From Halalkalibacter oceani (GTDB taxonomy: Bacteria; Bacillota; Bacilli; Bacillales; Bacillaceae_D), in contig NZ_JAMBOL010000013.1 of NCBI RefSeq assembly GCF_023715605.1, positions 1-64,000 of the forward strand: a DNA stretch of 64,000 nucleotides, written 5' to 3'. Positions within the stretch are counted from its first letter, which is position 1, and every line of letters starts with the position of its first letter. Positions 10,167-28,886 of this stretch are shown piece after piece. The position numbers and the translations under genes are program-made. The notes under the pieces are model-generated. The model was not told the DNA's origin. It saw only the letters and a list, made by a program, of their open reading frames with translations, and did no database searches.

Positions 10167-10182
10167 AATGGTCCCCCTTTTT

Positions 10183-12223: not shown

Positions 12224-14320
12224 TCATTTTATTCCATCTCGACCGAATAATGACCTCTCTAGCAGCTCCACGACATCTAGTGTCTCTACGGTTTCTTCCA
12301 CCTCTTTCGCCTTCGTGCCGTCGGCCAGCATCGTTAAGCAATACGGACAGCCACTGCTAATAATACTAGGGTCCACGGCGAGAGCCTGCTCCGTCCTGGC
12401 GACATTGATCCGGCTTCCTGTTTCTTCTTCGATCCACATCATTCCGCCGCCGGCTCCGCAGCACATCGCATTCTCCCGATTGCGGCTCATTTCGACCAGT
12501 TCAAGCCCGGGAATTGCTTGTAAAATCTCACGCGGCGGGCTGTAAACATCGTTGTATCTCCCTAAATAGCAGGAATCGTGATAGACGACGGTTTCTTTTA
12601 CTTCATAGGTTGGCGCAAGTCTCCCATCACGAATCAGTTCCGCTAACAGCTCTGTATGATGAAATACTTCCACGCCATTCAGACCAAAATCAGGATATTC
12701 ATGAGTAAATGTATGGTACGCGTGCGGATCAATCGTCACGATTTTTTTCACTTGATAAGCGTTAAATCGTTCAATTGTTGCTGCCGCTAGCTCCTGGAAC
12801 AAAAATTCATTCCCGAGACGGCGCGGTGTATCGCCGGAATTTTTCTCTTCGTTTCCGAGAATCGCAAACGTCACCCCGCTTTTATGCAGCACACGGGCAA
12901 ACGACTGGGCGATTTTTTGGCTCCGTTTATCGAATGATCCCATTGAGCCGACGTAAAATAAATACTCAACCTCGAGCCCTTGCTGTTGGCATTCTTTCAT
13001 CGTCGGGATTTGCAGCTCTTCCACGTCAAGCCGCCACTTTTCCCGTTCCTTCCGATTCAATCCCCACGGATTTCCCTGGCGCTCAATATTCGTCATCGCC
13101 CGTTGCGCTTCCGCAGGTAATTGGCCTTCTGTCAGTACCAAATAGCGTCGCAGATCGATGATTTTATCAACATGCTCATTCATAACCGGACACTGATCTT
13201 CACAGTTACGACAGGTCGTACATGCCCAAATTTCCTCCTCCGTTACAACGTTTCCGATAATCTGGTCGTCATAAGCGACGGCAACTTCCTCTTGTCCGGC
13301 CGCCTGCCGCGCGAGTTGATTGGCTGTAGTCCCAGAAAAGGCATAGCTGGGCAGCCAGGGGGAACGCGAGGTGAGGGCCGCTCCTTTTTCCGTTAAATGA
13401 TCGCGCATATTGACGATTAAATCCATTGGGGAAAGCAGCTTCCCTGTCCCGGTTGCCGGACACATCGACGTACAGCGGCCGCATTCGACACAGGCGTACA
13501 AATCGAGCAGTTGTTTCTGATTAAAGTCCTCGATGTTGTTGACACCAAACGTTTCCTGTGTCTCGTCCGCAAAATCAATCGGAACGAGCTGGCCAACTTG
13601 ATGGGTTTGCCCGAGAAAGACGTTTAACGGTGCGGCGAGCAGGTGGGCATGCTTCGACTGCGGAATATAGACTAAAAAGACGAGTAAAAATAATAAATGC
13701 AACCACCAGAAAAAATAAAAGCCGGCCCCGGCAGCGGCATGTGGCAATTGGGCGGCGACAGAAGCGATCGCGGAAGCCAGCGGTTCAAAGCCTGACAACG
13801 GCTTATCGAGCCACACTTTTTCCATTCCTTTGGCGCCGAGCTTCGATAACATCAAACCAGCTATAAACAATAGTACAAGCCCTGATTTCCAGCCTCGCTT
13901 CAACCGCGCTAGCTTTTCGATATATCGACGGTGAAAAGCCCAAAGCACGGCAAGTAAAATGAGGAAAACGATCACTTCTTGGATGAACGTGAAATAAGGA
14001 TAAAAGCTTCCCAGCGGCAAATGAGCATTCGGCTTCAATCCTTTCATGATAACATCGAGCGCACTGAACTGAACGAGCAGAAATCCGTAAAAAAAGACGA
14101 GATGAATCAACCCGCTTTTTCGATCCTTTAACAGCTTTTTTTGTCCAAAGACATTGACGATCACCGCCCGAATCCGCTCTTTCATTGTCTGTTGGAAGTC
14201 AGGCTTTTTACCGAGCTTGACAAATTGGTACCGTGTTTTGACAAGCGAGGCAAATAAAAAAAGAGCATAGCCCGTTATCATAACAAACAAGATTCTCGTG
14301 ATAACTAGAAAAACGTCCAC
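12224..14320 (-). CDS. fadF: Membrane Fe-S oxidoreductase, FadF/HdrD-like, ETF-linked
   Basis: A 699-residue protein with three parts: an N-terminal membrane domain with about six helices and conserved His (NarI-like, residues 1-230); a ferredoxin domain with two 4Fe-4S motifs (CVECGRCTSMCP from residue 277 and CTTCRNCEDQCP from 367); and a C-terminal pair of CCG domains (HDSCYLGRYND, CCGAGGG, CPYC). It matches B. subtilis FadF (YwjF) and is thought to pass electrons from ETF to menaquinone. It follows etfA by about 110 bases and closes the catabolic cluster. GTG 14320 has AAAGGAG upstream; a longer frame to 14419 is not needed. Confidence 0.9.
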   Translation of the reverse strand: MDVFLVITRILFVMITGYALFLFASLVKTRYQFVKLGKKPDFQQTMKERIRAVIVNVFGQKKLLKDRKSGLIHLVFFYGFLLVQFSALDVIMKGLKPNAHLPLGSFYPYFTFIQEVIVFLILLAVLWAFHRRYIEKLARLKRGWKSGLVLLFIAGLMLSKLGAKGMEKVWLDKPLSGFEPLASAIASVAAQLPHAAAGAGFYFFWWLHLLFLLVFLVYIPQSKHAHLLAAPLNVFLGQTHQVGQLVPIDFADETQETFGVNNIEDFNQKQLLDLYACVECGRCTSMCPATGTGKLLSPMDLIVNMRDHLTEKGAALTSRSPWLPSYAFSGTTANQLARQAAGQEEVAVAYDDQIIGNVVTEEEIWACTTCRNCEDQCPVMNEHVDKIIDLRRYLVLTEGQLPAEAQRAMTNIERQGNPWGLNRKEREKWRLDVEELQIPTMKECQQQGLEVEYLFYVGSMGSFDKRSQKIAQSFARVLHKSGVTFAILGNEEKNSGDTPRRLGNEFLFQELAAATIERFNAYQVKKIVTIDPHAYHTFTHEYPDFGLNGVEVFHHTELLAELIRDGRLAPTYEVKETVVYHDSCYLGRYNDVYSPPREILQAIPGLELVEMSRNRENAMCCGAGGGMMWIEEETGSRINVARTEQALAVDPSIISSGCPYCLTMLADGTKAKEVEETVETLDVVELLERSLFGRDGIK

Positions 14321-14433
14321 CTTTCCCACTCCTTTTCGTGATGACGTTTGTATTAGTGAGAGTGTACGGGTGCCAAATGGGCTGTTTTCCTTTTGGCATT
14401 TCCCGTCTTTTTTAGCCACTCCCTGTCTATGTT

Positions 14434-15414
14434 TTACGCTTTACTAGTGACTACCTTTCTGCATTCTTCCGTTAAAACGGGAAGCACTTCAAAAAGGTCG
14501 CCGACGATGCCGTAATCTGCAATCGAAAAAATCGGTGCTTCTGGATCTTTATTTATCGCGACGATCACTTTCGAGTTTGACATTCCGGCAACATGCTGAA
14601 TCGCTCCTGAAATCCCGCAAGCGATGTAGAGGTCAGGGGTCACGACCTTGCCGGTTTGCCCAATTTGCAAGGAATAATCGCAATAGTCGGCATCGCATGC
14701 TCCGCGGGAGGCACCGACGGCTGCCCCAAGTACATCGGCAAGCTCTTGGAGCGGGTGGAATCCGTCCTTGCTTTTGACACCGCGCCCGCCGGCGACAACA
14801 ATGTTAGCTTCCGTCAGATCGACACCGCTCGTTGTTTTTTCCACAATATCTTTAATCGTAGTGTGAAAATCTTTTATGTCCGGATAAACCGTTTTTATTT
14901 CGCCGCTGCGTGACGGATCGCTTTCTGCCGCCTGGATGTTATTCGGACGAATCGTCGCCATGATCATTCCTTCCTCGATTATCTTTTCTTCAAATGCTTT
15001 TCCAGAATAAATCGGCCTAGTGAATACGACTCGATCATCGACAAGCTCGAGCTTGACAACATCCGAGATTAGACCGCTTTTCAAGCTTGCGGCGATTCTT
15101 GGCGCAAGGTCTCTCCCCTGGGATGTATGGGCAAAAAGGAATCCATCCGGTCTCTCCTCTTCAATAATCTGAAGCAGCGCCTGCTTGTATGCCTCTGGCC
15201 GATAAGCGTCTAAGTCCGGATGCTCAGCGATGATCACACGGTCGGCCCCGTACTGAAACAACAGCTCTGTGAATCTTTCCACCTTTTCCCCAAGCAGCAC
15301 CGCCGTTACTTTGCCGCTTGTGGTCAGTTTTTTTGCCGCCGCAATCGCTTCAAATGAAACGTGGCGCAATGCACCGTGACGAATTTCAGCGAGAACAAAC
15401 ATGTTTTGGCTCAT
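14434..15414 (-). CDS. etfA: Electron transfer flavoprotein, alpha subunit
   Basis: About 326 residues. The N-terminal half has the ETF-alpha fold (FVLAEIRHGALRHVSFEAIAAA); the C-terminal FAD domain carries the family signature GQTGKVVTPDLYIACGISGAIQHVAGM and NKDPEAPIFSIADYGIVGD. It forms a heterodimer with EtfB, takes electrons from the acyl-CoA dehydrogenase and hands them to the membrane Fe-S protein encoded next. ATG 15414 sits behind TAGGAGGAGTGGAGACA. Only 14 bases separate it from etfB. Confidence 0.95.
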   Translation of the reverse strand: MSQNMFVLAEIRHGALRHVSFEAIAAAKKLTTSGKVTAVLLGEKVERFTELLFQYGADRVIIAEHPDLDAYRPEAYKQALLQIIEEERPDGFLFAHTSQGRDLAPRIAASLKSGLISDVVKLELVDDRVVFTRPIYSGKAFEEKIIEEGMIMATIRPNNIQAAESDPSRSGEIKTVYPDIKDFHTTIKDIVEKTTSGVDLTEANIVVAGGRGVKSKDGFHPLQELADVLGAAVGASRGACDADYCDYSLQIGQTGKVVTPDLYIACGISGAIQHVAGMSNSKVIVAINKDPEAPIFSIADYGIVGDLFEVLPVLTEECRKVVTSKA

Positions 15415-15428
15415 TGTCTCCACTCCTC

Positions 15429-16199
15429 CTATAAAATGTTCTTTTCAGTCGTTAAGCGCGAGACTAATTCGGAAACCTGCTGCTGAATGTCTCCGTCAAG
15501 CATCACCCCGGTCTTTTTCTCCGGTGGAAGATAGCGCTTGATTGTTTTCGTTTTTGCTTTTAGCGCTTCGACTGCTACTTCAAGCTCCTCCGGCTCAAGG
15601 ACTGTTAATGGCTTCTTCTTTGCTTTCATGATACCTGGCAGCGACGGGTAGCGCGGCTCGTTCAGTCCTTGCTGGGCGGTAATGAGGGCCGGGAGAGGAA
15701 CTTCAACAATTTCCAGATCTCCTTCGACATCGCGCTCTACCGTCGCCTTGTTTTCGTTGACCGTAAGCTTCGTCGCCGTTGTCACAGCCGGAATCGCCAA
15801 TTCCTCAGCCAAACGGGGACCGACCTGGCCTGATCCGTTGTCAATTGAGACATTTCCGGCTACAATCAGGTCATATTCGCGGTCTTGAAAATAGGCGGCG
15901 AACAGCATGCTTGTCGCCGCAGAATCGAGTTCGGTTTGCTCGTCGACCTCAATCAGATCAGCTTTATCAGCTCCGATGGCTAAAGCGGTTCGCAAGGCGC
16001 TTTCCGCTATACTGCCTCCCACTGTTACAACCGTTACGTCCCCACCGTGCGCTTCTTTTAGTTGCACCGCTTCCTCAATCGCGTATTCATCATACGGATT
16101 AATGATCAGCTCCGCCCCTTCGGTGACAATTTGTTGCTGATCAATCGCGATCCTTTCTTCTGTATCAAGAGTCTGTTTCATGACGACGTAAATGTTCAT
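15429..16199 (-). CDS. etfB: Electron transfer flavoprotein, beta subunit
   Basis: About 256 residues with the ETF-beta fold: MNIYVVMKQTLDTEERIAID, NPYDEYAIEEAVQLKE, VTVGG, and the family stretch DLIVAGNVSIDNGSGQVGPRLAEELAIP, then LPALITAQQGLNEPRYPSLPGIMKAKKK. It binds AMP and docks on acyl-CoA dehydrogenases. ATG 16199 follows GAGTGGAGAAG. A copy of the cluster's palindromic operator (16222-16235) lies immediately upstream, which suggests a separate promoter for etfBA-fadF. Confidence 0.95.
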   Translation of the reverse strand: MNIYVVMKQTLDTEERIAIDQQQIVTEGAELIINPYDEYAIEEAVQLKEAHGGDVTVVTVGGSIAESALRTALAIGADKADLIEVDEQTELDSAATSMLFAAYFQDREYDLIVAGNVSIDNGSGQVGPRLAEELAIPAVTTATKLTVNENKATVERDVEGDLEIVEVPLPALITAQQGLNEPRYPSLPGIMKAKKKPLTVLEPEELEVAVEALKAKTKTIKRYLPPEKKTGVMLDGDIQQQVSELVSRLTTEKNIL

Positions 16200-16221
16200 T
16201 CGCTTCTCCACTCCTCTTTAC

Positions 16222-16235
16222 TGTAATCGTTTACA
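16222..16235. promoter_or_regulatory. Palindromic LacI/CcpA-type operator before etfB
   Basis: TGTAATCGTTTACA, one change from the perfect palindrome TGTAAACGTTTACA at the regulator gene. Positioned between the alcohol dehydrogenase stop codon and etfB. Confidence 0.7.
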
Positions 16236-16265
16236 ATGAAACTTCTGCTTTTCTCTTTTCGGCTT

Positions 16266-17465
16266 TTATAAAGCTTGATATAACACTTCTTCAACCTCTT
16301 TAGCTACTGCTGTTCGCGGATTTAAACGGACGAGACGTTCAAGCGGAAGCGCCTTCGCGACAATCCCGGGAATATGGTCATGCTCAATGCCGATTTCCGA
16401 CAGCTTCGTCGGTAAGCCGAGATCGGCGACGAGCTGAAAAACAGCTGAAATGGCCTGCTCAGCTTTTTGCCCGGCGGTCTCCCCGCCAGTAGTCACCCGA
16501 AGCAGCTCGGCAATTCGCGCAAACTTCTCTGTACAGACGGAAGCATTATATTGCATGACATATGGGAGCAGCAAGGCGATAATCTCGCCATGAGGCCGTT
16601 CACTGTTTTCATAGATCGGATAGGCGAGAGCGTGAATCAGTGATGTCCCCGAGTTTGTAAATGCCAATGCGGAAAAAAGATTGCCTAACATCATGTTCGC
16701 TCTCGCTTCAAGATGACTGCCCTGATGAACAGCAAGCTGAAGATTGCGGCCAATTAATTCAATTGCTTTTTCGGCTAGCTGATCGGAAAGCGGGTTTCCT
16801 CCTTGATAAATGACGTTATCTCCTGCTTCGATATAGCGATGATCCTTGGCGAAGTAAGCTTCAATCGCCTGCGATAACGCGTCCATCCCCGTACATGCTG
16901 TTAAATACGGAGGCAGCTTCAGCGTCAGCTCCGGATCGAGAAGCGAGACAGCGGGTCGCAAATTCTGATCGGAGATGCCGATTTTCAGCTTTGTCTCATC
17001 GTCTGTCACGACCGCGACCGGCGAAACATCGGCGCCTGTCCCGGCTGTCGTTGGAATGGCGATGACTGGACGTATCGCTCCCGGTACACGATTCTCTCCG
17101 TAATAGTCTGAAAGCGGTCCTCCATGGGAAAGCAATAAAGAGGTCATCTTCGCCAAGTCGATGCTTGAACCGCCGCCCAGAGCGATAAACAGCTCCGGGC
17201 TGCTTTTTTTGAGCTCAGTAAAACAGGCTGAAACGGATGCGACAGACGGCTCCGTCGTTTCCTGCTGGTAAACCGCCGGTTGAATGTCCGCCTGCTCAAG
17301 CACAGTTAGTAGCGGTTGAAGCAAACCGGCTTGAATGATTCCCTTGTCGGTTACTACCGCTACGCGCGTCACCTTGAAGCGTTCAACAATTCCCGGAAGC
17401 CGTTGCAATGATCCGTTGCCAAAGACAATTGACCCGGCACTCGTAAATGTCCATACGTTTCTCAC
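16266..17465 (-). CDS. Iron-containing alcohol dehydrogenase (group III)
   Basis: A 399-residue NAD(P)-dependent, metal-dependent dehydrogenase. Nucleotide loop GGGSSID (residues 96-102), PTTAGTGAD, and the metal-binding region (GMDALSQAIEAY, then GTSLIHALAYPIYENSERPHGE with the two His ligands). It could interconvert a hydroxy- or aldehyde-bearing intermediate. Relatives include 4-hydroxybutyrate dehydrogenases and maleylacetate reductases; sequence alone does not decide. GTG start behind AAAGGTGGGGG; begins 16 bases after the MaoC gene, so cotranscribed. Confidence 0.85.
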   Translation of the reverse strand: MRNVWTFTSAGSIVFGNGSLQRLPGIVERFKVTRVAVVTDKGIIQAGLLQPLLTVLEQADIQPAVYQQETTEPSVASVSACFTELKKSSPELFIALGGGSSIDLAKMTSLLLSHGGPLSDYYGENRVPGAIRPVIAIPTTAGTGADVSPVAVVTDDETKLKIGISDQNLRPAVSLLDPELTLKLPPYLTACTGMDALSQAIEAYFAKDHRYIEAGDNVIYQGGNPLSDQLAEKAIELIGRNLQLAVHQGSHLEARANMMLGNLFSALAFTNSGTSLIHALAYPIYENSERPHGEIIALLLPYVMQYNASVCTEKFARIAELLRVTTGGETAGQKAEQAISAVFQLVADLGLPTKLSEIGIEHDHIPGIVAKALPLERLVRLNPRTAVAKEVEEVLYQAL

Positions 17466-17481
17466 TCAAGCCCCCACCTTT

Positions 17482-17928
17482 TTACGAATTCGTTCGCCTC
17501 GTGTATAAATCATCTAGCTCCATCAGAGCGGATCGTCCTTCGACGATAACTTTTTCATCCTGGTTTGTCACAACTGCCTCAAGCACAAGAATCTTCTTTT
17601 TTGGCTTTTTTTCAACGACCGTTAGCGTCACGGTAATCGTATCACCGATAAAAACAGGCGCTTTAAAGTTCAGCTCCTGCCCGACGTACACATAGCCCGG
17701 ATCAGTCAAATTCGTATGGGCTGTCGAAATAATCGCAGCCGTAAACATCCCGTGAACGACGCGCCTTTGAAAAATCGTTTTCGTAGCGAATGCTTCATCC
17801 ATATGAAGCGGATTCAAATCACCGGAAAGCCGGCCGAATGTATTGACATCCTCCTCTGTAATCGTTCTCATCTCAACATGAGTCGTGCCAATCTCCATTT
17901 GGTCAAATGGTTTTCTCGTATGTCCCAT
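17482..17928 (-). CDS. MaoC-like (R)-specific enoyl-CoA hydratase
   Basis: A 148-residue hot-dog-fold protein with the canonical hydratase-2 motif (FGRLSGDLNPLHMDEAFA; catalytic Asp and His in D-x4-H) and VVHGMFTAAIIS, then YVGQELNFKAPVFIGDTITV. It hydrates trans-2-enoyl-CoA to (R)-3-hydroxyacyl-CoA or works on a branched or dicarboxylic enoyl-CoA. It starts 13 bases after the acyl-CoA dehydrogenase stop codon. A second, more divergent MaoC gene lies at 22944-23369 in the same cluster. Confidence 0.9.
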   Translation of the reverse strand: MGHTRKPFDQMEIGTTHVEMRTITEEDVNTFGRLSGDLNPLHMDEAFATKTIFQRRVVHGMFTAAIISTAHTNLTDPGYVYVGQELNFKAPVFIGDTITVTLTVVEKKPKKKILVLEAVVTNQDEKVIVEGRSALMELDDLYTRRTNS

Positions 17929-17941
17929 CGCTGTTCTCTCC

Positions 17942-19093
17942 TCACTTTCCAGCTATAACATGTCGGGAAATAATCAGCCGTTGGATTTCTGATGTCCCTT
18001 CGACAATTTCAAGCACCTTCGCATCACCGAACGCTCGGCTGACCGGATATTCAGACATGATGCCGTAACCCCCATGGAGTTGAATTGCCTGATGCGCAGC
18101 TTCCATCGCCTTTTCTGTTGCGAACAACTTCGCCATTGATGACTCCTGGTCAAATGGCTTGCCTTCATCCTTGAGCATCGCCGCCTGATAGAGCATCAGC
18201 CGTGCCGCATGGGCATTGGTCGCCATGTCCGCCAATGCAAATTGCAACGATTGATAGTCGGTTAACGGCTTGCCGAACGTTTTTCGTTCCTGCATATATT
18301 GCAGACTGCGATCGATCGAACCTTGGATGATTCCAAGCGCCATTGCTCCAATTAAAATCCGCCCTGTGCTGATCGTGGATAATGTTTGCTTCAGTCCCTT
18401 TCCTTCTTCACCTAATAAATGGTCTTTCGGAATGCGCACTTGATCAAAGAACAATTCTCCGGTGCTTGAAGCACGCCAGCCAATTTTGTTCAGCTTTCTG
18501 CCATACGTAAATCCGGCCACCCCATTCGGGATGACAAAGTTCGAGATTTGATTCCGTCCGTCAGGCTTTTTCCCGGTCACAGCAGCAACGACGACAGGCC
18601 CCGTTATGTCATTATCGGAGTTACTGATGAAAATCTTTGAACCGTTGATCACCCACTCGTCCCCTTCAAGCCTGGCTGTTGTTTGAATATTGGCGGCATC
18701 GGAGCCGGCATTCGGTTCGGAAAGGCCGATCGCCCCGACTTGCTCACCGGTCAAAATCGGCGGCAAGTAGCTTTCTTTCAGCTTTTTTGAACCATAGTTG
18801 TTAATCAGGCTAGCGGCCGACGAATTCGCCATAAAGGCATTCGCCACCGCACAATCCACCCGGGCCAGTTCCTCTAAAATAATCGTAAAGGAGAGCCAGT
18901 CACCTCCGGCTCCTCCTACTTCCTCAGGGTACGGAAAGCCGGCCAAGCCAAGCTCCCCGCCCTTTTTCCAGATGTCGTACGGAAAGGTTTGCCCTTCCCA
19001 CAGCTTTTCGGCAACCGGAGCAATTTCCGCTTCCGCAAATTCGCGCACCATTTTACGAATCATCTGCTGCTCTTCTGTTAATTGAATCGCCAT
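17942..19093 (-). CDS. Acyl-CoA dehydrogenase
   Basis: A 383-residue FAD enzyme of the short/medium-chain type. N-terminal helical domain (LTEEQQMIRKMVREFAEAEI), middle beta domain with FAD-contact signatures (AIGLSEPNAGSDAANI and GEEGKGLKQTLSTI), and a C-terminal catalytic region LEIVEGTSEIQRLIISRHV. The Glu of EGT matches the catalytic base of the SCAD/MCAD branch. It forms an alpha-beta double bond in an acyl-CoA and reduces ETF encoded downstream. ATG 19093 follows AAAGGTGGAG; the GTG at 19108 overlaps that site. Confidence 0.95.
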   Translation of the reverse strand: MAIQLTEEQQMIRKMVREFAEAEIAPVAEKLWEGQTFPYDIWKKGGELGLAGFPYPEEVGGAGGDWLSFTIILEELARVDCAVANAFMANSSAASLINNYGSKKLKESYLPPILTGEQVGAIGLSEPNAGSDAANIQTTARLEGDEWVINGSKIFISNSDNDITGPVVVAAVTGKKPDGRNQISNFVIPNGVAGFTYGRKLNKIGWRASSTGELFFDQVRIPKDHLLGEEGKGLKQTLSTISTGRILIGAMALGIIQGSIDRSLQYMQERKTFGKPLTDYQSLQFALADMATNAHAARLMLYQAAMLKDEGKPFDQESSMAKLFATEKAMEAAHQAIQLHGGYGIMSEYPVSRAFGDAKVLEIVEGTSEIQRLIISRHVIAGK

Positions 19094-19130
19094 CGGCCTC
19101 ATCTCCACCTTTCTTCCTCATTCCATACTC

Positions 19131-19144
19131 TGAAATCGTTTACA
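19131..19144. promoter_or_regulatory. Palindromic operator before the acyl-CoA dehydrogenase gene
   Basis: TGAAATCGTTTACA, in the 69-base gap between the CoA-transferase and acyl-CoA dehydrogenase genes. Matches the cluster consensus TGTAAWCGTTTACA at all but one position. Confidence 0.65.
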
Positions 19145-19162
19145 ATCAAAGCCGTGCTTCCC

Positions 19163-20374: not shown

Positions 20375-20393
20375 GACCTAACCTCCTCGTATT

Positions 20394-21167
20394 TTATTTC
20401 GTGCGGTTGAGAAATTTCGCAAATCCTTCCTCCGTGTGCGGGGCGCTGTAATTGACAGCATAAGCGTGGGCTTCAAATTGGAAGCCGTCTGAAAGACCGA
20501 GCTCTGCTCCTTTATTGATCGCCTCCTTTGCTATTTTTAAGGGAAATGGCGCTTTTTCAGCGAGCTGATCCGCTAAAGCCATCGTCTCTCTCTCCAGCTG
20601 TTCATGGCGCACGATCCGGTTTATAAAACCAAACTCCGCGCAGACATTTGCCGGGTAATATGCTCCCGTTAAAATCATTTCCTTCGCCCTATTCAAGCCG
20701 AGCTTCTTGGCGGCAAGCTGTGTTCCTCCCCAGCCAGGCATCGTATTTAAGTTAATTTCCGGAAATCCGAACGTCGCTTTTTCAGATGCAACGATCAAGT
20801 CGCAGGAAAGCGCCAGCTCAAAGCCACCTCCGAGCGCGTAGCCATTAACCATCGCGATCACCGGCTTCGGAAATTCATGAATCCGTAAAAAAGTCCGTTG
20901 GCCAAGGCGCATTTGCTCATAGGCTGCTACTGGGTCGAGCTTAGCCAATTGCTCGAGATCATTGCCGACGACAAATGCTTTTTCGCCGGCTCCGGTGATG
21001 ATGACGACCTTGAGCGTCTCGTCCTTCTCAATCCGGTCAAGCACCTGATTCAGCTCACTCAAAACCTCCGGGTTAAACGCATTCAATTTATCAGCGCGGT
21101 TTACCGTGACGGTAAATACCGCATCCTCTCTTTTGGTCAGCAACGTGTTAAGCGTGGACAATGTCAT
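20394..21167 (-). CDS. Enoyl-CoA hydratase/isomerase (crotonase family)
   Basis: A 257-residue crotonase. Oxyanion-hole segments EKAFVVGNDLEQL and GYALGGGFELALSCD are present. Both Glu residues expected of hydratases appear in place (FGFPEINLNTMPGWGGTQ and LNRAKEMILTG). It probably hydrates the enoyl-CoA made by the acyl-CoA dehydrogenase. Its start overlaps the end of the flavoprotein gene by 20 bases, and GGAGGTTCCCGT precedes the ATG, so translation is likely coupled. Confidence 0.9.
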   Translation of the reverse strand: MTLSTLNTLLTKREDAVFTVTVNRADKLNAFNPEVLSELNQVLDRIEKDETLKVVIITGAGEKAFVVGNDLEQLAKLDPVAAYEQMRLGQRTFLRIHEFPKPVIAMVNGYALGGGFELALSCDLIVASEKATFGFPEINLNTMPGWGGTQLAAKKLGLNRAKEMILTGAYYPANVCAEFGFINRIVRHEQLERETMALADQLAEKAPFPLKIAKEAINKGAELGLSDGFQFEAHAYAVNYSAPHTEEGFAKFLNRTK

Positions 21168-22914
21168 ACGGGAACCTCCTTACCGTCTCAGGATCACTGG
21201 CGATTTTCCGGTGCTTGATCTCCTCTCCCTCCAGCCTTGTGGCGATCCGGTATAAGTGCTGCTCATCATCGCGCTTTTGATAATCAACTCTGAAGTGGCT
21301 GCCGCGTGTTTCTTTTCTCATCCGCGCCACCCGTGAAATAATTTCACCGATTAATAGCAAGTTTTCCGCTTCAATCGCGTGCGTCAGCTCTTTGCGATTG
21401 TTGACGACGATATCCGTTTCAAACGTCCTGCGAAGCGCCTGCAGCTTTTCAATCGCTGTCGTTAAGCTTTCCTCGCTGCGCGTCACGAGGACATACTTCC
21501 ACATGATTTCCTGCAATTGCTTTTTAAGATGATGCGGCTTCACCGTTCCTTGTTTGTCAAGAAGCATTTGCAGGCGCTCGGTTTCTCCTGTTACCTGCTC
21601 GGCCGGCACAGGCAGTGCCTCAACCTGTTTGATGAATTCAGCCGCCGCCAGTCCTGCACGCTTCCCGTAAACCTGACAAGTCAGCACCATATTTCCGCCC
21701 AGCCGGTCGGCTCCATGCGGTCCACCCGATGTTTCTCCGGCGGCATACAGGCCTTTGATCGTCGTGCCTCCATGTTCATCAATCAATAAACCGCCATTGA
21801 TCGCATGCCCTAATATCGCCACCTCAACCGGGGTCGTTCGCAAATCGAGATCGCGATTTTCAATCAGCCAGTTTACGGTAATGTTCCATGACTTGCGAAT
21901 CTCCTCGCCGCGGGCATTATGCGGCAGTTTATCCAAATCAATCTTTGTAAAGTCAACGATCACCCCGCCATGCGGGCCACCCCTGCCTTCCTTGATCTCA
22001 GTCTGAATCGAGACATCAATCCATTGCGACCCGTCATAGCTTGAAAATGGATAGTGACCTGAACGTAAATCCATACAGCGTTCAACCGTCATTCCTTCCG
22101 GCAAATAGTTTCGTATAAAATGTTCGCCCCGGCCATTTGTCACCTCTGGATGAAACGCCCACAGCCATGAATTAAACATATTTTTGCACGGATAGATCAA
22201 CCCCGGGCCGGCCTGCATAAATTCCATGTTAATCAGCTCGGCTCCCGCTTTAAACCCAAGTGAATAGCCGTCGCCGGTAATATCGGACGGATTAATGTTA
22301 TAAGAGAATAATTGCCCGGCGCCGCCTGTGCCCATAATAATCGCCTTCGCCTGAAAGACAACGGTTTCCCCCTGGCGATTAAGACCGACCGCCCCGCAAA
22401 CCTGGTTGTTCTCGACGAGAAACTTCGTTAACATCGTCCATTCATATACCGGAATGCCCCGCTTGTAAATCTCCTCCTTTTGCGCATGAACGATCGGTTC
22501 AGCATGCCCGGGAATTAAATGCATTCGCGGCTTCGTCGCAAAGCAGCCTAACACTTCAAAATAACTGCCATCTTCATTTTTATGGAAGGGAATGTTTAAC
22601 CTTTCCAAATCCCGCAGCGTTTCAATTGATTCATCCGTCAACACTTTCGCCAGCTCAGGATCAGCCATTCCGGCCGCCGCCCGCATAACATCGGCGTAAT
22701 GGACTTCCGGTGAGTCTTCAGGGTCGGCTTGCCCATCAGCAACGTTATAACCTAGAATCTCCGCTATTTTGTAGGCACTTGCCCCGCTCGTTCCAAATGC
22801 GCCCTTCATGACAACGGCTACCGAAGCCCCGCCGTCATGCGCGGCAATCGCCGCTTTTCCGGCTGCGGCTCCACCGCCGATGACAAGCACATCGCATTGA
22901 ATATCTTTTCTCAT
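21148..22914 (-). CDS. FAD-dependent oxidoreductase, fumarate reductase/AprA-like
   Basis: A 588-residue flavoprotein of the succinate dehydrogenase/fumarate reductase flavoprotein superfamily. FAD-binding GGGAAAGKAA (residues 13-22), GTSGASAYK, and the second FAD region (GLYAAGETSGGPHGADRLGGN). A helical C-terminal domain follows (about residues 455-560). No signal peptide, heme motifs or partner Fe-S/membrane subunits are nearby, so it is a soluble enzyme that may oxidise or reduce a C=C bond of the pathway's acid or CoA ester. Its electron partner is unknown. Confidence 0.85.
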   Translation of the reverse strand: MRKDIQCDVLVIGGGAAAGKAAIAAHDGGASVAVVMKGAFGTSGASAYKIAEILGYNVADGQADPEDSPEVHYADVMRAAAGMADPELAKVLTDESIETLRDLERLNIPFHKNEDGSYFEVLGCFATKPRMHLIPGHAEPIVHAQKEEIYKRGIPVYEWTMLTKFLVENNQVCGAVGLNRQGETVVFQAKAIIMGTGGAGQLFSYNINPSDITGDGYSLGFKAGAELINMEFMQAGPGLIYPCKNMFNSWLWAFHPEVTNGRGEHFIRNYLPEGMTVERCMDLRSGHYPFSSYDGSQWIDVSIQTEIKEGRGGPHGGVIVDFTKIDLDKLPHNARGEEIRKSWNITVNWLIENRDLDLRTTPVEVAILGHAINGGLLIDEHGGTTIKGLYAAGETSGGPHGADRLGGNMVLTCQVYGKRAGLAAAEFIKQVEALPVPAEQVTGETERLQMLLDKQGTVKPHHLKKQLQEIMWKYVLVTRSEESLTTAIEKLQALRRTFETDIVVNNRKELTHAIEAENLLLIGEIISRVARMRKETRGSHFRVDYQKRDDEQHLYRIATRLEGEEIKHRKIASDPETVRRFPYDIVHA

Positions 22915-22943
22915 TGATCTCCCTCCTCTTCTCTCCTGTTTTC

Positions 22944-23369
22944 CTACAATACTTTCAAATACGTGTTTCCTTTCAGAACGACGGTTCCATCCTGTTTTGT
23001 GACGACCGCATCAAAGATGCACGTGTTTTTTTCCTCGTCTTTTTCTTTTAAATCGAGCCGGGCCGTTACCGTATCACCAATCAGAACGGGCGCGGTAAAG
23101 GTCACGTCATAACGATACGAGACCGCGCCCGGATCCGGAACGCGCTGAGCCATGAACCCCATCACCGTCGCGATATATCCGACGGAAAGCGCTCCTTGGG
23201 CAATCCTTGTGCCGAAACGGGTTTTCTTTGCATATTCCTCATCGACATGCACCCCGTAAAAATCACCGACAATCCCGGCAAACCCATATACATCATATTC
23301 GCTGACCGTTTTCGAAAACTGAGAATTGTCTCCAATTTGAAACACATCCATATTGGCACGCTTAGCCAT
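22944..23369 (-). CDS. MaoC-like dehydratase/hydratase, divergent
   Basis: A 141-residue single hot-dog protein. The catalytic D-x4-H is kept (GDFYGVHVDEEYAKKTRFG), but the usual NP before His is replaced by YG, marking it as a different specificity from the canonical MaoC at 17482. Later IAQGALSVGYIATVMG and FTAPVLIGDTVTARL fit the fold. ATG 23369 lies behind GAAGGAGAG. It is separated from dctP by about 95 bases and is followed by the flavoprotein gene. Confidence 0.85.
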   Translation of the reverse strand: MAKRANMDVFQIGDNSQFSKTVSEYDVYGFAGIVGDFYGVHVDEEYAKKTRFGTRIAQGALSVGYIATVMGFMAQRVPDPGAVSYRYDVTFTAPVLIGDTVTARLDLKEKDEEKNTCIFDAVVTKQDGTVVLKGNTYLKVL

Positions 23370-23465
23370 ATGTTCACTCTCCTTCACTTATGTGGCAGCT
23401 TGCCGCACCTGGATCTTTGGACTGGCTCCAAATGCGGTCAGGCTGCTCCTTTCTAATTGTTGCGG

Positions 23466-24533
23466 TTATTCTTTTTGAGCCTGAATGGCTTCATATAGCT
23501 CCTGTCCATTTGGAATTCCATTTAACAAGTCATCATAGATCGCTGAAGCCTGCTCCTGCATACCTGCGGTGTCACTCTCAATGACGGTGACTCCTGCTTC
23601 CTGCATCTCGGCAATCGATTCATCAAACGACTGATAATAATAATCCATTCCTTCCGCCAATGCTTCCTCCGCAGCTTCCGTTAACGCCTGCTGTTGATTT
23701 TCACTTAATTGCTCCCAGATCGTTTTCGAAATAATTAGCGTTGCTGGTAAATAATGGACTTTTGTGATATTGTAATAATCGGCTACTTCTACAAAACGGT
23801 CCATGACAAATTGGTCCGGAGATGTATCAGCGCCATCAACGACGCCTTGTTGTAATGCTGTATACACTTCTGAATAAGCCATCGCGGTTGGCTGGGCTCC
23901 CAATGCTTCGTATGCTGCCACATACCCGGGAGCCTCCATCACGCGAACGCGAAACCCATTAAAATCATCAGCTGTGTCAAGCGGTTTAGAAGAAAACACA
24001 TTTCGCTCCATCGCCGATAAGAAGCCAAGTCCTATTAAATCGTGCTCCTCAAGCATCTCCAAATATTGATCTCCTACTTCACTTTGTAAAATCGCATTCG
24101 CTTCATCGAGGTTGTCAAACAAGTACGGCAAGTCAAACATCGACCATTCCGGCACCATATTTGTCAACGGAGCCTGCGCTGTAATAAGCATTTCCTGATT
24201 TCCTGCCTGCGCAGCTTGAATCATCGCTACTTCCCCACCAAGCTGTGATTGAGGGAAGACATTCATTGTAATGCTACCGCCTGTCTTTTCCTCGACAAGT
24301 TCAGCCAGTCTTTCCGAGACGACGTGATAATGACTGTCCGGAGCAAGCGTATGTCCGATATTAAATTCAAAGCTTTCTTCTTCCCCGGCTGACGCCTCTC
24401 CATTTTCTCCGCCTCCGGTTCCACCAGACGTATCAAGAGCTGCCGTATCCTCTCCTCCACATGCAGCTAATCCAATGCAAACGGCTGTAAGTAAAGCAAC
24501 TAAGATTAATAATGACTTCTTCACTGTTTTCAC
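23466..24533 (-). CDS. dctP: TRAP transporter substrate-binding lipoprotein (DctP)
   Basis: A 355-residue lipoprotein: signal with lipobox ending LAAC, then a Gly/Glu-rich linker and a DctP domain (GHTLAPDSHYHVVSERLAELV, SQLGGEVAMIQAAQAG, ERNVFSSKPL, FNGFRVRVMEAPGYVAAYEALGAQPTAMAYSEVYTALQQGVVDG). The Arg in GFRVRV is the usual carboxylate-binding residue, so the ligand is an organic acid. In a Gram-positive cell it is lipid-anchored outside the membrane. A palindromic operator at 24606-24619 precedes it, suggesting a promoter of its own. Confidence 0.95.
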   Translation of the reverse strand: MKTVKKSLLILVALLTAVCIGLAACGGEDTAALDTSGGTGGGENGEASAGEEESFEFNIGHTLAPDSHYHVVSERLAELVEEKTGGSITMNVFPQSQLGGEVAMIQAAQAGNQEMLITAQAPLTNMVPEWSMFDLPYLFDNLDEANAILQSEVGDQYLEMLEEHDLIGLGFLSAMERNVFSSKPLDTADDFNGFRVRVMEAPGYVAAYEALGAQPTAMAYSEVYTALQQGVVDGADTSPDQFVMDRFVEVADYYNITKVHYLPATLIISKTIWEQLSENQQQALTEAAEEALAEGMDYYYQSFDESIAEMQEAGVTVIESDTAGMQEQASAIYDDLLNGIPNGQELYEAIQAQKE

Positions 24534-24605
24534 TCTCCTCTTTTGATTCTTATGATAACTTTCAACCAGCGACCGGCTTCCTGTGTAAAATCCCCCCTTT
24601 TAACC

Positions 24606-24619
24606 TGTAATCCTTTACA
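24606..24619. promoter_or_regulatory. Palindromic operator before dctP
   Basis: TGTAATCCTTTACA, a one-base variant of the cluster operator. It overlaps the last codons of dctM (stop at 24615) and lies about 75 bases before dctP. Confidence 0.6.
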
Positions 24620-25892
24620 GATTCGGAAGCCACAATGTCAAAAATGGTAGATAAGTTATTAACAATACATTCGTAATCAAAACCGCTAAAAAGATCGCCA
24701 ACGGCCTGAAAAGCTGATCGATTCTCAGCTTCGCAATCTGACAAGCAACAAACAGATTGACCCCTACAGGCGGTGTAACCATTCCGATTGCCAGGTTGAC
24801 AATCATCACAATCCCGAAATGAATCGGATCGATGCCAAACTGGACAGCAATCGGTGCAAGAATCGGCCCTAAAATAATAATCGCCGCCAAGGTTTCCATG
24901 AACATCCCTGTTATAAACAGGAGGATATTAACGAGAATGAGAAAGACGATCGGGCTGTCTGAGATTTGCGCTATTGTTTCTGCAACCATATGAGGCACTT
25001 GATTAATCGTCAGGATATAACCGAAAATCGAGGCAAACCCGACGAGCAGAAGAATAATCCCGGTCGTGACCGCCGCCTTACCAAGGATGTCGCCGATATC
25101 TTTCATTGTAATTTCGCGGTAAATAAAATAGCCGACGATAAAACCATAGACAACCGCTACAACTGCCGCCTCTGTCGGAGTAAAGAGGCCAAAGTAAATT
25201 CCGCCAAGAATTATGATCGGCATCAAGAGCGCCCAGAAAGCATCCTTAAACGCTTTCCACAGCTCTTTAAACCAGCTGCCTTTGTCAATTTGCGTGACTT
25301 CATCAAAGCCTTTTATTTTAGCTACAATTGAAACCGTTATCATTAATGACAAGCCGATTAAAATGCCGGGAACGATGCCGGCAAGAAACAAGCCACCGAT
25401 TGAAACATTGGCTACCAGTCCATAGACGATCATCGAAATAGAAGGAGGAATAATAACGCCCAATTCACCGGATGACGCCGTCAAAGCGGTCGCGAAATTT
25501 CGCGGATAGCCTTTTTTCTCCATTGATGGGATCATGACCGAGCCAATTGCCGCAGTTGTTGCCGACGAAGAACCTGACATTGTTGAAAAAAACATCGTCG
25601 TCAGAACCGAGGCAGCCCCCAGCCCCCCTCTGAACCAGCCGACAAGCACATTCGCCAAAGCGAGCAGCCGTTTGGCAATGCCGCCTTTCTGCATCAACGC
25701 ACCTGCGAGAATGAAAAACGGAACAGCCATTAATGAAAACTTATCCAGTCCTTCGAAAACCTTTTGGGCAACAACGCCAATCGCTTTGCCTTCCAGCTGC
25801 AACAGCAAAATCGATGAAAGCCCGAGCGAGATCGCGATCGGCACCCCGATTATAAATAAAACACCAAGTAACAAAAACAATTTCAAAGTCAT
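24615..25892 (-). CDS. dctM: TRAP transporter large permease (DctM)
   Basis: A 425-residue integral membrane protein with about 12 helices, the ion-coupled permease of a TRAP system. Signatures: PFFILAGALMQKGGI, SGSSSATTAAIGSVMIPSMEKKGYP, GELGVIIPPSISMIVYGLVA and GIVMIVNLAIGMVTPPVGVNLFV. Known TRAP systems are usually driven by sodium. ATG behind AAAGGAGGGG. Gene order is Q-M-P, with dctQ upstream by 26 bases. Confidence 0.95.
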   Translation of the reverse strand: MTLKLFLLLGVLFIIGVPIAISLGLSSILLLQLEGKAIGVVAQKVFEGLDKFSLMAVPFFILAGALMQKGGIAKRLLALANVLVGWFRGGLGAASVLTTMFFSTMSGSSSATTAAIGSVMIPSMEKKGYPRNFATALTASSGELGVIIPPSISMIVYGLVANVSIGGLFLAGIVPGILIGLSLMITVSIVAKIKGFDEVTQIDKGSWFKELWKAFKDAFWALLMPIIILGGIYFGLFTPTEAAVVAVVYGFIVGYFIYREITMKDIGDILGKAAVTTGIILLLVGFASIFGYILTINQVPHMVAETIAQISDSPIVFLILVNILLFITGMFMETLAAIIILGPILAPIAVQFGIDPIHFGIVMIVNLAIGMVTPPVGVNLFVACQIAKLRIDQLFRPLAIFLAVLITNVLLITYLPFLTLWLPNL

Positions 25893-25918
25893 TAATCTAC
25901 CCCTCCTTTACACTTTCT

Positions 25919-26458
25919 TTAATCTAAAGATTCGTAGGCTTCATCTTCCATTGAAACAAATCGGATATCGCCTTTTTTGAGGAAGACATTAATGAATAAT
26001 GTGATCAAATTCAACGTTCCTAATAAAGCGCCAATCGGCATCGAAAGATAGACAGCCAGCATCGGAATCCCCATAACAGGTGACGTCTGTCTCCCGCCCT
26101 GATTCAGCGCAAACTCAAAGCCTAAGTAAAGTAAATATCCAAAGAAGACCATCGTCAGCAAATGAGCACCGGTTTTCAGCGCCTTGCCTAAGCTCGCCGG
26201 CAAGGAATGAATCAGCACCTCGAGTGCGATCAGCTTATCTGTCCTGACGGCGACAGCTCCTCCGATAAAAACAGACCAAATCATTAAATACCTTGCCAGT
26301 TCCTCCGTCCACGGCACAGACAGGCGAATATCCATCGCCGTGAAGACAAAACGAACGAGCACCTGTAAAAAGATCGATAAAGTCATCACCGCGAACGCCG
26401 CACTAAGAGAGATGACAGCGAAGCGGTTTAAACGATCAACCAATCTGACGAACCCCAT
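25919..26458 (-). CDS. dctQ: TRAP transporter small permease (DctQ)
   Basis: A 179-residue protein with four membrane helices and the family pattern RLNRFAVISLSAAFAVMTLSIFLQVLVRFV, then the PWTEELARYLMIWSVFIGGAVAVR block and GFEFALNQGGRQTSPVMGIPM. It pairs with DctM. ATG 26458 follows AGGAGGGAAAGT; the longer frame to 26500 would overlap the lacI-type gene. Confidence 0.9.
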   Translation of the reverse strand: MGFVRLVDRLNRFAVISLSAAFAVMTLSIFLQVLVRFVFTAMDIRLSVPWTEELARYLMIWSVFIGGAVAVRTDKLIALEVLIHSLPASLGKALKTGAHLLTMVFFGYLLYLGFEFALNQGGRQTSPVMGIPMLAVYLSMPIGALLGTLNLITLFINVFLKKGDIRFVSMEDEAYESLD

Positions 26459-26472
26459 ACTTTCCCTCCTCC

Positions 26473-27519
26473 TTATTTTTCCTGAACAGTAGCGCCACAT
26501 GTTTTTCGGATAATTAACTGTGGGCTTAATTTAATTTGCCATGAATTCAATTCAGAAGGCGGCAAATTATTTTCCTGTTCATCAATTTTCTGCATCAGCC
26601 TTTCCACTGCCAGCTTTGACATTTCCTCTACGGCCTGATTAACCGTCGTCAGACCGATAAAGCTGTGACCAGACAGGCGAATGTTATCAAAGCCGACAAT
26701 TGCTACTTCTTCAGGAACGCGATAGCCGAGCTCCGACAAGCATTCCATTGCCTCCATTGCGATGAAATCGGCCGAAGTAAAGATCGCAGTCGGCTTGATT
26801 TTATCGCTGTACATCACCCGGATCGCCTCTCTAACTTTCGTTTCGATGTTTTTAAAGCCCACCTCGTGCATTAAATGGGGATAGACTTTCAATCCATTGA
26901 CCGCGAGCGCCTTATGATAGCCTTCAAGCCGGCTCTCGACCGTCTCGGATTCACTTGAGCCGTAAACCATACTAATCCGTTTATGGCCGAGCCGAATTAA
27001 GTGACTCACTGCTTCAAAGGCACCTTTATAGTTGTCCTGGACGATATAATCCACTTGCTTCCGCTTGTTCTTCCGGTTGTACAGCACATATGGAATCTGA
27101 CTGTGATCCAGCTGCTCTATGAGCCTATGATCATCCTTGTACATCGAGCCGATGATGATCCCATCGACCCGTTTCGCAATCAGAAAGGCGATATATTCTG
27201 CCATCTTGCTCGACTTTTCTTCGTTGACATACAGCATGACATGACTATCAAACTTTGAAGCTTCTTTTACAATACATTCTGCGCTTTCAGCAAAAAACGG
27301 ATTATCTAGCCCGCCGACTATGAGACCAATTGTAAACGTTCTTTTTTTAATCATGCTTCTCGCGATAAGATCAGGGTAGTACTTGTACTGATCGATCACC
27401 TCCTGAACTTTCTTTTTCGTCCTTTCCTTCACAAAAGGATAGTTGTTAATCACACGGGACACCGTAGCTGTCGATACGCCTGCTTTTTTGGCAATGTCTT
27501 TCATCGTTGGTTTATGCAT
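26473..27519 (-). CDS. LacI-family transcriptional regulator
   Basis: A 348-residue regulator. HTH at residues 6-25 (MKDIAKKAGVSTATVSRVIN), hinge region, then a periplasmic-binding-protein-like ligand domain (TIGLIVGGLDNPFFAE, RVDGIIIGSMY, AIFTSADFIAMEAMECL, EEVAIVGFDNI). First gene of the minus-strand catabolic cluster and almost certainly its local regulator; inducer presumably the TRAP substrate or a pathway intermediate. Three palindromes of LacI type lie within about 170 bases upstream, pointing to autoregulation. Confidence 0.95.
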   Translation of the reverse strand: MHKPTMKDIAKKAGVSTATVSRVINNYPFVKERTKKKVQEVIDQYKYYPDLIARSMIKKRTFTIGLIVGGLDNPFFAESAECIVKEASKFDSHVMLYVNEEKSSKMAEYIAFLIAKRVDGIIIGSMYKDDHRLIEQLDHSQIPYVLYNRKNKRKQVDYIVQDNYKGAFEAVSHLIRLGHKRISMVYGSSESETVESRLEGYHKALAVNGLKVYPHLMHEVGFKNIETKVREAIRVMYSDKIKPTAIFTSADFIAMEAMECLSELGYRVPEEVAIVGFDNIRLSGHSFIGLTTVNQAVEEMSKLAVERLMQKIDEQENNLPPSELNSWQIKLSPQLIIRKTCGATVQEK

Positions 27520-27554: not shown

Positions 27555-27570
27555 TTGTAATCGTTTACAA
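27555..27570. promoter_or_regulatory. Palindromic LacI-type operator O1
   Basis: TTGTAATCGTTTACAA, about 36 bases before the regulator start codon. Fits the LacI/CcpA pattern with a central CG. Confidence 0.75.
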
Positions 27571-27582
27571 TTATCCATTTAC

Positions 27583-27598
27583 TTGTAAACGTTTACAA
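27583..27598. promoter_or_regulatory. Palindromic LacI-type operator O2, perfect
   Basis: TTGTAAACGTTTACAA is a perfect 16-bp palindrome. Its centre is 28 bases from that of O1, so two dimers could bind side by side and block transcription of the regulator and the operon. Confidence 0.8.
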
Positions 27599-28427: not shown

Positions 28428-28886
28428 CTATTCGCTTTCGACGACTTTTTCCTTTAGCAGCTTGTTTCTCAGCTCATATTGCGCAAAAAGTTCGGTCAGC
28501 AATTGACTGATTTGTTCCTCATCCCGTTTCTTCACCGCTTCAAGAAACGCCTTCTGCAGCTTCTCATGTTGAGCCGCCCATTCTTTTTCCTGCTTTGATT
28601 CGGCGAGCAGCTCCCGCTTTTGCGCTTCATTGATCGCTTTCAGCAAAAGATCGCGCTCTTTTTTGATATTCTGCCAGCGCTCCACCTCATGCGGCCGATT
28701 TTTTTCAGCAAGCAGCTCGTAATAATAATCGATGTGATCATTGATTCCTTCCGCGCATGGCCATGGTCTTTCCTCTTCGCTCTCCGCTTGCTCCGCCTGA
28801 ACAAAATCAGACAAGCTGACAGCGGTCAGCGCTGCGGTGATACCGACTATTTGCAGCACGAGAAACAACCTCCAAAACTGTTTCAC
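28428..28886 (-). CDS. Secreted or membrane-anchored helical protein, unknown
   Basis: A 152-residue protein. Residues 1-31 look like a signal peptide or anchor (two basic residues, then LFLVLQIVGITAALTAVSL, possible cleavage after VQA). The remainder is highly charged (Glu/Lys/Gln) and predicted helical or coiled coil, with a single Cys at about residue 44. No family recognised. Located between bkdB and the catabolic cluster, with its own terminator beyond the repeat. Probably outside the cytoplasm. Confidence 0.6.
   Translation of the reverse strand: MKQFWRLFLVLQIVGITAALTAVSLSDFVQAEQAESEEERPWPCAEGINDHIDYYYELLAEKNRPHEVERWQNIKKERDLLLKAINEAQKRELLAESKQEKEWAAQHEKLQKAFLEAVKKRDEEQISQLLTELFAQYELRNKLLKEKVVESE

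Follow-up and report, generated by a model that had tools for sequence, protein, structure and literature searches.

A conserved CoA-dependent operon of Halalkalibacter oceani with a possible role in the opening of alpha-alkoxy acids

Which substrate is served by an operon that combines TRAP uptake, a class III CoA-transferase, two MaoC hydratases and a flavoprotein of the fumarate reductase fold? The question is raised by fourteen genes at positions 12224 to 27519 of the window, that is, the whole stretch of 64,000 nucleotides analysed here (Halalkalibacter oceani contig NZ_JAMBOL010000013.1, positions 1 to 64,000). The first-pass annotation gave the right coordinates for all fourteen open reading frames (ORFs), which are uninterrupted on the minus strand, and Pfam supports each family that it had named. 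Read 5' to 3', the genes encode a LacI-family regulator, DctQ, DctM, DctP, MaoC1, the flavoprotein (FRD), a crotonase/enoyl-CoA hydratase (ECH), CaiB, an acyl-CoA dehydrogenase (ACAD), MaoC2, an iron-type alcohol dehydrogenase (Fe-ADH), the electron-transfer flavoprotein (ETF) subunits EtfB and EtfA, and a FadF-like protein; neighbours are spaced by −28 to 81 nucleotides. Among the NCBIfam models listed (the best 25 of 73 for ECH and the best 25 of 43 for the flavoprotein), none has its cut-off reached by an enzyme of the operon, and only the subfamily models of DctP and DctM are passed. This supports the initial description of a CoA-dependent, as yet unassigned operon in which TRAP serves uptake and electrons probably leave from ETF to quinone. 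We tentatively propose that it is the Bacillota version of a conserved pathway, so far uncharacterised, in which CoA is a temporary, recycled handle for opening an alpha-alkoxy acid, either a uronide or a cyclic ether acid like tetrahydrofuran-2-carboxylate; we regard this joint proposal as possible, somewhat short of an even chance.

The 14-gene set is real and goes beyond chance. A synteny search recovered all 14 genes in H. oceani P106 (locus L023), in the same order and with 88–100% identity, and 10 and 11 of the 14 in two other Bacilli, Ammoniphilus resinae and genome G072, respectively (47–79% identity), where CaiB and ACAD have changed places and the gene order is otherwise that of the window. 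According to the first-pass annotation, synteny with a known, characterised pathway would have spoken against a new system; none was found, nor did the titles and first lines of abstracts of the open-access literature yield a matching characterised pathway. Relatives of MaoC1 (22944–23387), ACAD (17942–19108), CaiB (19163–20374; Pfam CoA_transf_3, 373 bits) and MaoC2 (17482–17928), 54–79% identical, are found together in Ammoniphilus resinae, G072 and Burkholderiales. The core order DctQ-DctM-DctP-MaoC1-ECH-ACAD-CaiB-MaoC2 is present in G072, Ammoniphilus, Paracandidimonas (G843), Castellaniella (G871) and Pseudomonas daroniae (G860), and the window core differs from it in that CaiB precedes ACAD. 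The core thus occurs in Bacillota, Betaproteobacteria and Gammaproteobacteria. FRD lies inside it in the Bacillota form; within the stretches read of G843, G871 and G860 no FRD was found, and a GH88 gene adjoins the core. The Burkholderiales rows are related and do not count as independent. The core enzymes also share motifs: MaoC1, a variant hydratase by its Pfam MaoC match and GDFYGVH motif, reads GDFY(G/A)VH in the core loci and in L062, L069 and L074. The MaoC2 of the core loci carries GDLNPLH, as it does in the window (Pfam MaoC), which we take to be the canonical hydratase motif. A search for MaoC1 in plasmids gave no match. The window ACAD (Pfam) keeps the EGTSE glutamate, presumably a functional residue, and ECH (20394–21167; Pfam ECH_1) has both glutamates to which we assign the hydratase role.

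For unsaturated glucuronyl hydrolase (UGL) it is established that GH88 enzymes add water to an enol ether adjacent to a carboxylate. The core has a GH88 gene beside it in each of the eight Burkholderiales genomes that were identified independently of GH88 and whose stretch could be lengthened. The same holds for the three genomes picked through GH88 (G843, G871, G860), giving 11 of 12; the twelfth is the Burkholderiales locus L030, whose stretch ends before the place of GH88. The gene lies 3.3 kb from MaoC2 in L178 and on the other strand in L179, and eight of the 11 genomes with core and GH88 also show an FAA-family gene. A GH88 profile search, from which L030 and L044 were left out, matched 24 of 49 FRD-positive genomes, namely 12 of the 13 known beforehand to bear the core and 12 of the 36 others, three of which then proved core-bearing. 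The single miss among the 13 was the metagenome-assembled genome (MAG) of L069, with a partial core only. As a control, none of 28 other GH88 loci of Bacilli (neither those of the window genome nor those of Ammoniphilus, loci having been obtained for only some of the 42 GH88-positive genomes of the class) had relatives of CoA-transferase, MaoC, ECH, ACAD, FRD or dihydrodipicolinate synthase (DHDPS) within about 1.5 kb on each side.

The window genome has a GH88 gene of its own on another contig (C58; L098, 5747–17116), in a cluster with the order TRAP, short-chain dehydrogenase/reductase (SDR), GFO/IDH, MaoC, SDR, GH88, CoA-transferase, DHDPS, SDR and ECH. Its product matches UGL (PDB 1vd5/2ahf) with an E-value of 1.4e-50 and keeps D88 and D149. 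This TRAP/GH88/CoA-transferase cluster is a separate and likewise unassigned CoA/GH88 cluster of that genome. Ammoniphilus has a cluster that matches it in nine gene pairs at 57–75%, with FRD in the place of GH88. The Cupriavidus GH88 proteins matched no Pfam family at 1e-6, so they were compared with PDB by phmmer; the GH88 of L077 matched UGL at 2e-37. When GH88 proteins were aligned, the equivalent of D149 was present in all nine rows and that of D88 in three (L098, L135 and L064), which suggests that the two groups found beside CoA genes have different substrates. A two-part substrate was weighed here, from which FRD, GH88, CaiB and ECH would free a uronic acid while ACAD, MaoC2 and Fe-ADH degrade an acidic aglycone. 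Burkholderiales loci such as L032, with two CaiBs and one set per strand, agree with such a conjugate, as does the retention of both UGL aspartates in L064, the sole Burkholderiales core locus whose GH88 is in the alignment; given that just one CaiB set stands beside core and GH88 in the stretches read of G843, G871 and G860, we find it rather unlikely.

What, then, does the flavoprotein contribute? FRD (21148–22914; Pfam FAD_binding_2 and Succ_DH_flav_C) had been described as soluble and fumarate-reductase-like, and the fold is confirmed, while the active site is not. FRD is 24% identical to E. coli FrdA, 25% to SdhA and 27% to NadB. In the alignment the covalent-FAD histidine of FrdA is replaced by Tyr or Trp, and His232 by Gly, in all eight rows of the family. 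At the FrdA positions His232, Thr244, Arg287 and His44 (roles and numbering as we take them to be) the window protein has Gly, a gap, Tyr and Tyr, the Thr and Arg columns lying near gaps; the acid/base Arg, here Tyr, is Arg in three of the eight rows. The equivalents of the pair H355/R390 (numbered without Met1), which we take to bind carboxylate in FrdA, are kept in all eight. A gene for an FrdB/SdhB iron-sulfur partner was not found among the 14 by Pfam. Given the lost active-site residues and the missing FrdB, FRD is, as far as its sequence tells, not a fumarate reductase. The nearest models of the family are nonetheless those of fumarate reductase, and one plasmid record says just 'FAD-binding protein'.

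The 53 FRD loci from a genome scan, 30–99% identical, come from Bacillota, Proteobacteria, NC10, Spirochaetes and other groups; because the sampling began with FRD-positive genomes, finding FRD in them is uninformative. Some loci are redundant (L008/L023, L017/L024, L018/L033 and L020/L028, with L001–L006 and L009–L015 as short copies). Counts refer to the 52 loci with called ORFs (L023–L075 minus L051, too short for ORF calling, with both Ammoniphilus entries included); two of them have no ORF labelled FRD. Within the stretches available, a CoA-transferase accompanies FRD in 42, MaoC in 32, ECH in 25, ACAD in 22 and DctM in 21, and 21 loci hold at least one of DHDPS, FAA, KDPG aldolase, PfkB, IlvD/EDD and GH88. 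For scale, the window genome (4.47 Mb) contains one KDPG aldolase above cut-off and four DHDPS. These 21 loci favour an alternative in which FRD oxidises the alpha-hydroxyl of a 3-deoxyaldonate to a 2-keto-3-deoxy acid (from saccharinic acids of alkali-treated hemicellulose, for instance), the CoA enzymes feeding further hydroxy acids into this route by dehydration or epimerisation. The retained His/Arg pair, with the carboxylate-binding role presumed above, would suit such an oxidation, and Halalkalibacter is an alkaliphilic genus; as ACAD, ETF and the GH88 partner would go unexplained and a plain 2-hydroxyacid needs no CoA, we consider this unlikely. It is also doubtful, if conceivable, that CoA-handle ether opening is a new class of pathway in which the alpha-alkoxy acid loses hydrogen or water as its CoA ester, CoA moves on to the following substrate molecule, and the free enol ether is opened by GH88 or, in Bacillota, through redox-neutral hydration by the SdhA-fold flavoprotein, the two being non-homologous solutions for one step. 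Ammoniphilus has GH88 on two other contigs, which weakens FRD as a simple replacement of GH88. A second FRD paralog of the window genome (L007, contig C59; 42% identical) has as neighbours a class I CoA-transferase, two tripartite tricarboxylate transporters, MaoC and a D-2-hydroxyacid dehydrogenase.

Beyond the operon, the partner genes point to the exit of the pathway. In G072 the operon is followed by genes for SDR, EamA, an FAA-family protein and an aldehyde dehydrogenase (ALDH) that scores above the cut-off of the alpha-ketoglutarate-semialdehyde dehydrogenase (KGSADH) model NF042993 (913.5 of 770). A second cluster, GH88-ACAD(50%)-FeADH-ETF-ALDH, comes after these genes, and its ALDH is above the cut-off as well (919.2). 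The window genome has an FAA-ALDH pair on contig C11, 72 and 79% identical to the pair of G072 (ALDH 920.6 of 770) and adjoining an IlvD/EDD-type dehydratase, and Ammoniphilus has a similar pair on the operon's own contig (ALDH 884.9). Six other ALDHs scanned at GH88 or FRD loci did not exceed the NF042993 cut-off. We therefore cannot retain the description of the system as 'self-contained': relatives of the core carry GH88 and FAA, G072 has KGSADH directly behind, and the window genome holds GH88, FAA and ALDH genes on other contigs. The sequences make 2-oxoglutarate semialdehyde the likely exit, with direct support beside the operon in G072 only.

An analogy for the chemistry comes from Cupriavidus, since the window ACAD is 66–69% identical to Cupriavidus and Azospirillum ACADs that adjoin GH88. 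On Cupriavidus plasmids the 69%-identical ACAD is found with GH88, MaoC, CoA-transferase, Fe-ADH, an acyl-CoA synthetase, an NADP aldehyde dehydrogenase and an ABC transporter. The cluster ends 4–5 kb from a set with molybdenum, FAD and 2Fe-2S subunits, an AMP-binding protein and ECH, supplemented in strain NH9 by a GMC oxidoreductase, UbiD and UbiX; we take this set to be furoate/hydroxymethylfurfural-like genes. The GH88-ACAD-FeADH-CoA-transferase clusters of L103 and L104 are by analogy candidates for tetrahydrofuran-2-carboxylate degradation: activation of the cyclic ether acid, desaturation by ACAD, release of CoA, opening by GH88 to 5-hydroxy-2-oxopentanoate and a final oxidation to 2-oxoglutarate by Fe-ADH and ALDH would give most of the Cupriavidus genes one use each. 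In the open-access literature searched (titles, first lines of abstracts and passages) we found no genes named for this route. Cupriavidus pinatubonensis JMP134 is described as degrading tetrahydrofurfuryl alcohol (PMC2842291). That trait would bear on the GH88 cluster only if JMP134 carries it. On the plasmid of Agrobacterium pusense (L083), IS66 genes separate ACAD-FeADH-CaiB from CoA-transferase-GH88-ABC-ETF-ETF:QO. For the window, the ether-acid reading is an analogy drawn through ACAD, MaoC1, Fe-ADH and the GH88 partner of the core, not a proof, and the window operon may act on a uronide or on a ring acid with hydroxyl groups.

In the transporter, DctQ (25919–26500; Pfam DctQ) and DctM (24615–25892; Pfam DctM, TIGR00786 at 472 bits, above cut-off) are the small and large permeases, and DctP (23466–24533; Pfam DctP, with PDB relatives) is the binding protein. 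In a motif table the window DctP keeps both arginines of uronate binders and has the asparagine replaced (DTSPD), positions being matched by motif and not by structure. The DctPs of the alignable core loci share the ligand-site motif R..R..DTSP; most other FRD loci have Glu-Asn at this position. The row of L030 did not align at the motifs, and the motif scan gave no match in the G843, G871 and G860 stretches, which stand outside the comparison. A conserved Asn is described for TRAP binders of glucuronate, pantoate and erythronate (PMC7660916, PMC11668362), and by our own mapping it would be the one replaced in the window group.

From the gene set, synteny, operator-like sites and gene partners observed, we infer the following reactions and substrate. 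TRAP would import the alpha-alkoxy acid, onto which CaiB would transfer CoA from the product. Desaturation by ACAD, with electrons passing through ETF and FadF to quinone, would give an alpha,beta-unsaturated enol-ether acyl-CoA; alternatively MaoC1, MaoC2 and ECH could yield it when a beta-hydroxyl is present. CaiB would then reclaim CoA, and the free enol-ether acid, once hydrated, would collapse to a 2-oxo acid and an alcohol. This opening might be performed by GH88 in the proteobacterial form, and by the flavoprotein or a GH88 coded elsewhere in the Bacillota form. Fe-ADH would oxidise the primary alcohol released, and the 2-oxo acid would reach 2-oxoglutarate via 2-oxoglutarate semialdehyde with the help of KGSADH and an FAA-family enzyme, both coded on another contig in the window genome. 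As noted at first, the operon has no ligase, thiolase or lyase; a recycled CoA handle would explain this, and in our view it fits better than the usable acyl-CoA then suggested as one possible end product.

Several observations weigh against this proposal. The window operon itself lacks GH88, FAA and KGSADH, and why one pathway should need ACAD, ECH and two MaoCs stays unexplained. The UGL residue D88 is absent from six of the nine GH88 rows, including those of Cupriavidus and G072. CoA-transferase was not seen in 10 of the 52 FRD loci, and L069, the Bacillota MAG with a partial core, lacks GH88 and has a CoA-transferase of class I. In Bacillota, each of the four genomes whose core includes FRD also has GH88 at another place, so that FRD and GH88 may both be necessary, for separate steps, and not replace each other. 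As for the exit, the ALDHs of L076 and L083 are nearest to KGSADH yet below its cut-off (555.8 and 551.4 of 770), those of L077 and L034 have no NCBIfam match at 1e-60, and that of L084 is nearest to succinate-semialdehyde dehydrogenase. Finally, the Cupriavidus Fe-ADH is just 33% identical to that of the window.

Could the operon be a simpler one? It might be an ordinary beta-oxidation operon with a transporter, for short-chain fatty acids or of the carnitine type. The set of CaiB, ACAD, crotonase and ETF is similar in kind to the cai/fix layout, and among the nearest PDB relatives of ACAD are short-chain and butyryl-CoA dehydrogenases. Against this, E. coli CaiB, CaiA and CaiD are only 25, 26 and 34% identical, Pfam finds neither a 3-hydroxyacyl-CoA dehydrogenase family nor a thiolase among the 14, and partners such as GH88 and FAA would be unexpected, which makes this quite improbable. 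Carnitine itself was rejected on the same identities and on NCBIfam scores below the cut-offs for crotonobetainyl-CoA dehydrogenase (165 of 540), hydratase (138 of 500) and CoA-transferase (125 of 413). Itaconate and mesaconate CoA routes were set aside as well (mesaconate CoA-transferase model 214 of 700; no lyase family among the 14 by Pfam). In an acrylate/3-hydroxypropionate route, CaiB and ECH would interconvert acrylyl-CoA and 3-hydroxypropionyl-CoA, Fe-ADH would form malonate semialdehyde and ACAD-ETF would act as acryloyl-CoA reductase. This last is the best NCBIfam model for both ACAD and EtfA; all three AcrCAB-type scores are below cut-off (ACAD 411.1 of 640, EtfA 258.7 of 600, EtfB 159.5 of 475), FRD and the two MaoCs would not be needed and KGSADH follows the G072 operon, so that we judge it very improbable. 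By NCBIfam cut-offs and comparison with E. coli proteins, neither standard beta-oxidation nor acrylate/3-hydroxypropionate was accepted as the identity of the operon. A 4-O-methylglucuronate substrate with Fe-ADH as methanol dehydrogenase, raised by PDB matches to methanol dehydrogenases, was dropped for want of evidence. Fe-ADH (16266–17465; Pfam Fe-ADH, best NCBIfam score 278 of 550) reads GMDALSQAIEA, with Gln where the usual motif of the family has a His metal ligand.

The last three genes encode EtfB (15429–16211; Pfam ETF), EtfA (14434–15423; Pfam ETF and ETF_alpha) and a protein (12224–14419) whose name and role, a FadF-like ETF:quinone oxidoreductase, are inferred from its CCG and Fer4 (4Fe-4S) domains; among the NCBIfam models listed it reaches the cut-off of none. 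Their link to the rest of the operon is suggested by operator-like sites. LacI (26473–27519; Pfam LacI/Peripla_BP) is encoded by the first gene, 5' of which lie a perfect palindrome, TGTAAACGTTTACA (27584–27597), and a second site, TGTAAACGATTACA (27556–27569). The latter recurs at 16222–16235 in the gap directly upstream of etfB, and a near variant, TGTAAACGATTTCA, stands directly upstream of ACAD (19131–19144). Across the 4.47-Mb assembly there are three occurrences of the pattern TGTAAACGWTTACA, each within the operon, and none of the reversed control pattern. LacI relatives of 96, 61 and 56% identity head the same operon in H. oceani P106, G072 and Ammoniphilus, respectively; the word of the window lacI region is also found 5' of lacI in G072, and TGTAAACGATTTCA upstream of ACAD in P106 and of lacI in Ammoniphilus. 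At the matching place in P106 the palindrome upstream of etfB was not found. We read the palindromes as the putative operator of the operon's own LacI, which would place ETF and the FadF-like protein in the same regulon since one stands upstream of etfB. They presumably fit a cre-like consensus; control by CcpA is disfavoured, as TGTAAACGWTTACA occurs nowhere else in the genome.

The next gene on the same strand, in the window and in P106, is ZnuA (11063–12136); in the gap before it there is one promoter-like site, against 0.5 in shuffled sequence, and a search of the gap for terminator-like sites was negative. Farther on, a Mn-catalase ORF (9597–10247) matches only positions 1–200 of the 284 of the Pfam profile and may be shortened. 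On the other side, an ORF of 152 residues (28428–28886), with no Pfam or NCBIfam match at 0.001, separates the operon from 2-oxoacid dehydrogenase genes (E2, E1 beta).

If the proposal holds, genes would become known for a kind of ether or uronide degradation that has no gene set in the literature searched, GH88 would gain a role outside polysaccharide-lyase systems, and a function would be predicted for a flavoprotein family with 53 loci in one scan. Operons with CoA-transferase and ACAD but without thiolase would then not necessarily denote beta-oxidation. The core spans Bacillota and two proteobacterial classes, yet none of its enzymes reaches a cut-off among the NCBIfam models listed.

Among known systems, E. 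coli caiABCDE/fixABCX shares with the operon a class III CoA-transferase, ACAD, crotonase and ETF. In the carnitine system CoA is handed from product to substrate, as proposed here. It differs in having no TRAP, FRD, MaoC, Fe-ADH or GH88, in using FixC where the window has a FadF-type protein, and by its 25–34% identity. With the flavoproteins of fumarate reductase and succinate dehydrogenase, FRD has in common the fold and the H355/R390 pair; it departs from FrdA and SdhA in its 24–25% identity, Gly for H232, Tyr or Trp for the covalent-FAD His and the lack of FrdB. The tetrahydrofurfuryl alcohol/tetrahydrofuran-2-carboxylate route of Cupriavidus (Ralstonia) eutropha would need CoA activation, desaturation of the cyclic ether acid, ring opening and an end at 2-oxoglutarate. 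The ACAD of the Cupriavidus GH88 cluster is 69% identical to that of the window, whose operon differs by TRAP, FRD, ECH and MaoC2 and by the absence of GH88. Known UGLs serve polysaccharide-lyase systems. GH88 proteins with the D149 of UGL (PDB 1vd5, 2ahf), kept in 9 of 9 rows, occur in the proteobacterial form of the core and in the C58 cluster, and in the relatives GH88 stands with CoA-transferase, MaoC and ECH, unlike known UGLs. Finally, when positions are matched by motif, the TRAP binding proteins for D-glucuronate (PMC7660916) have two conserved arginines in common with the window DctP, and their conserved Asn is replaced in the window group (DTSP).

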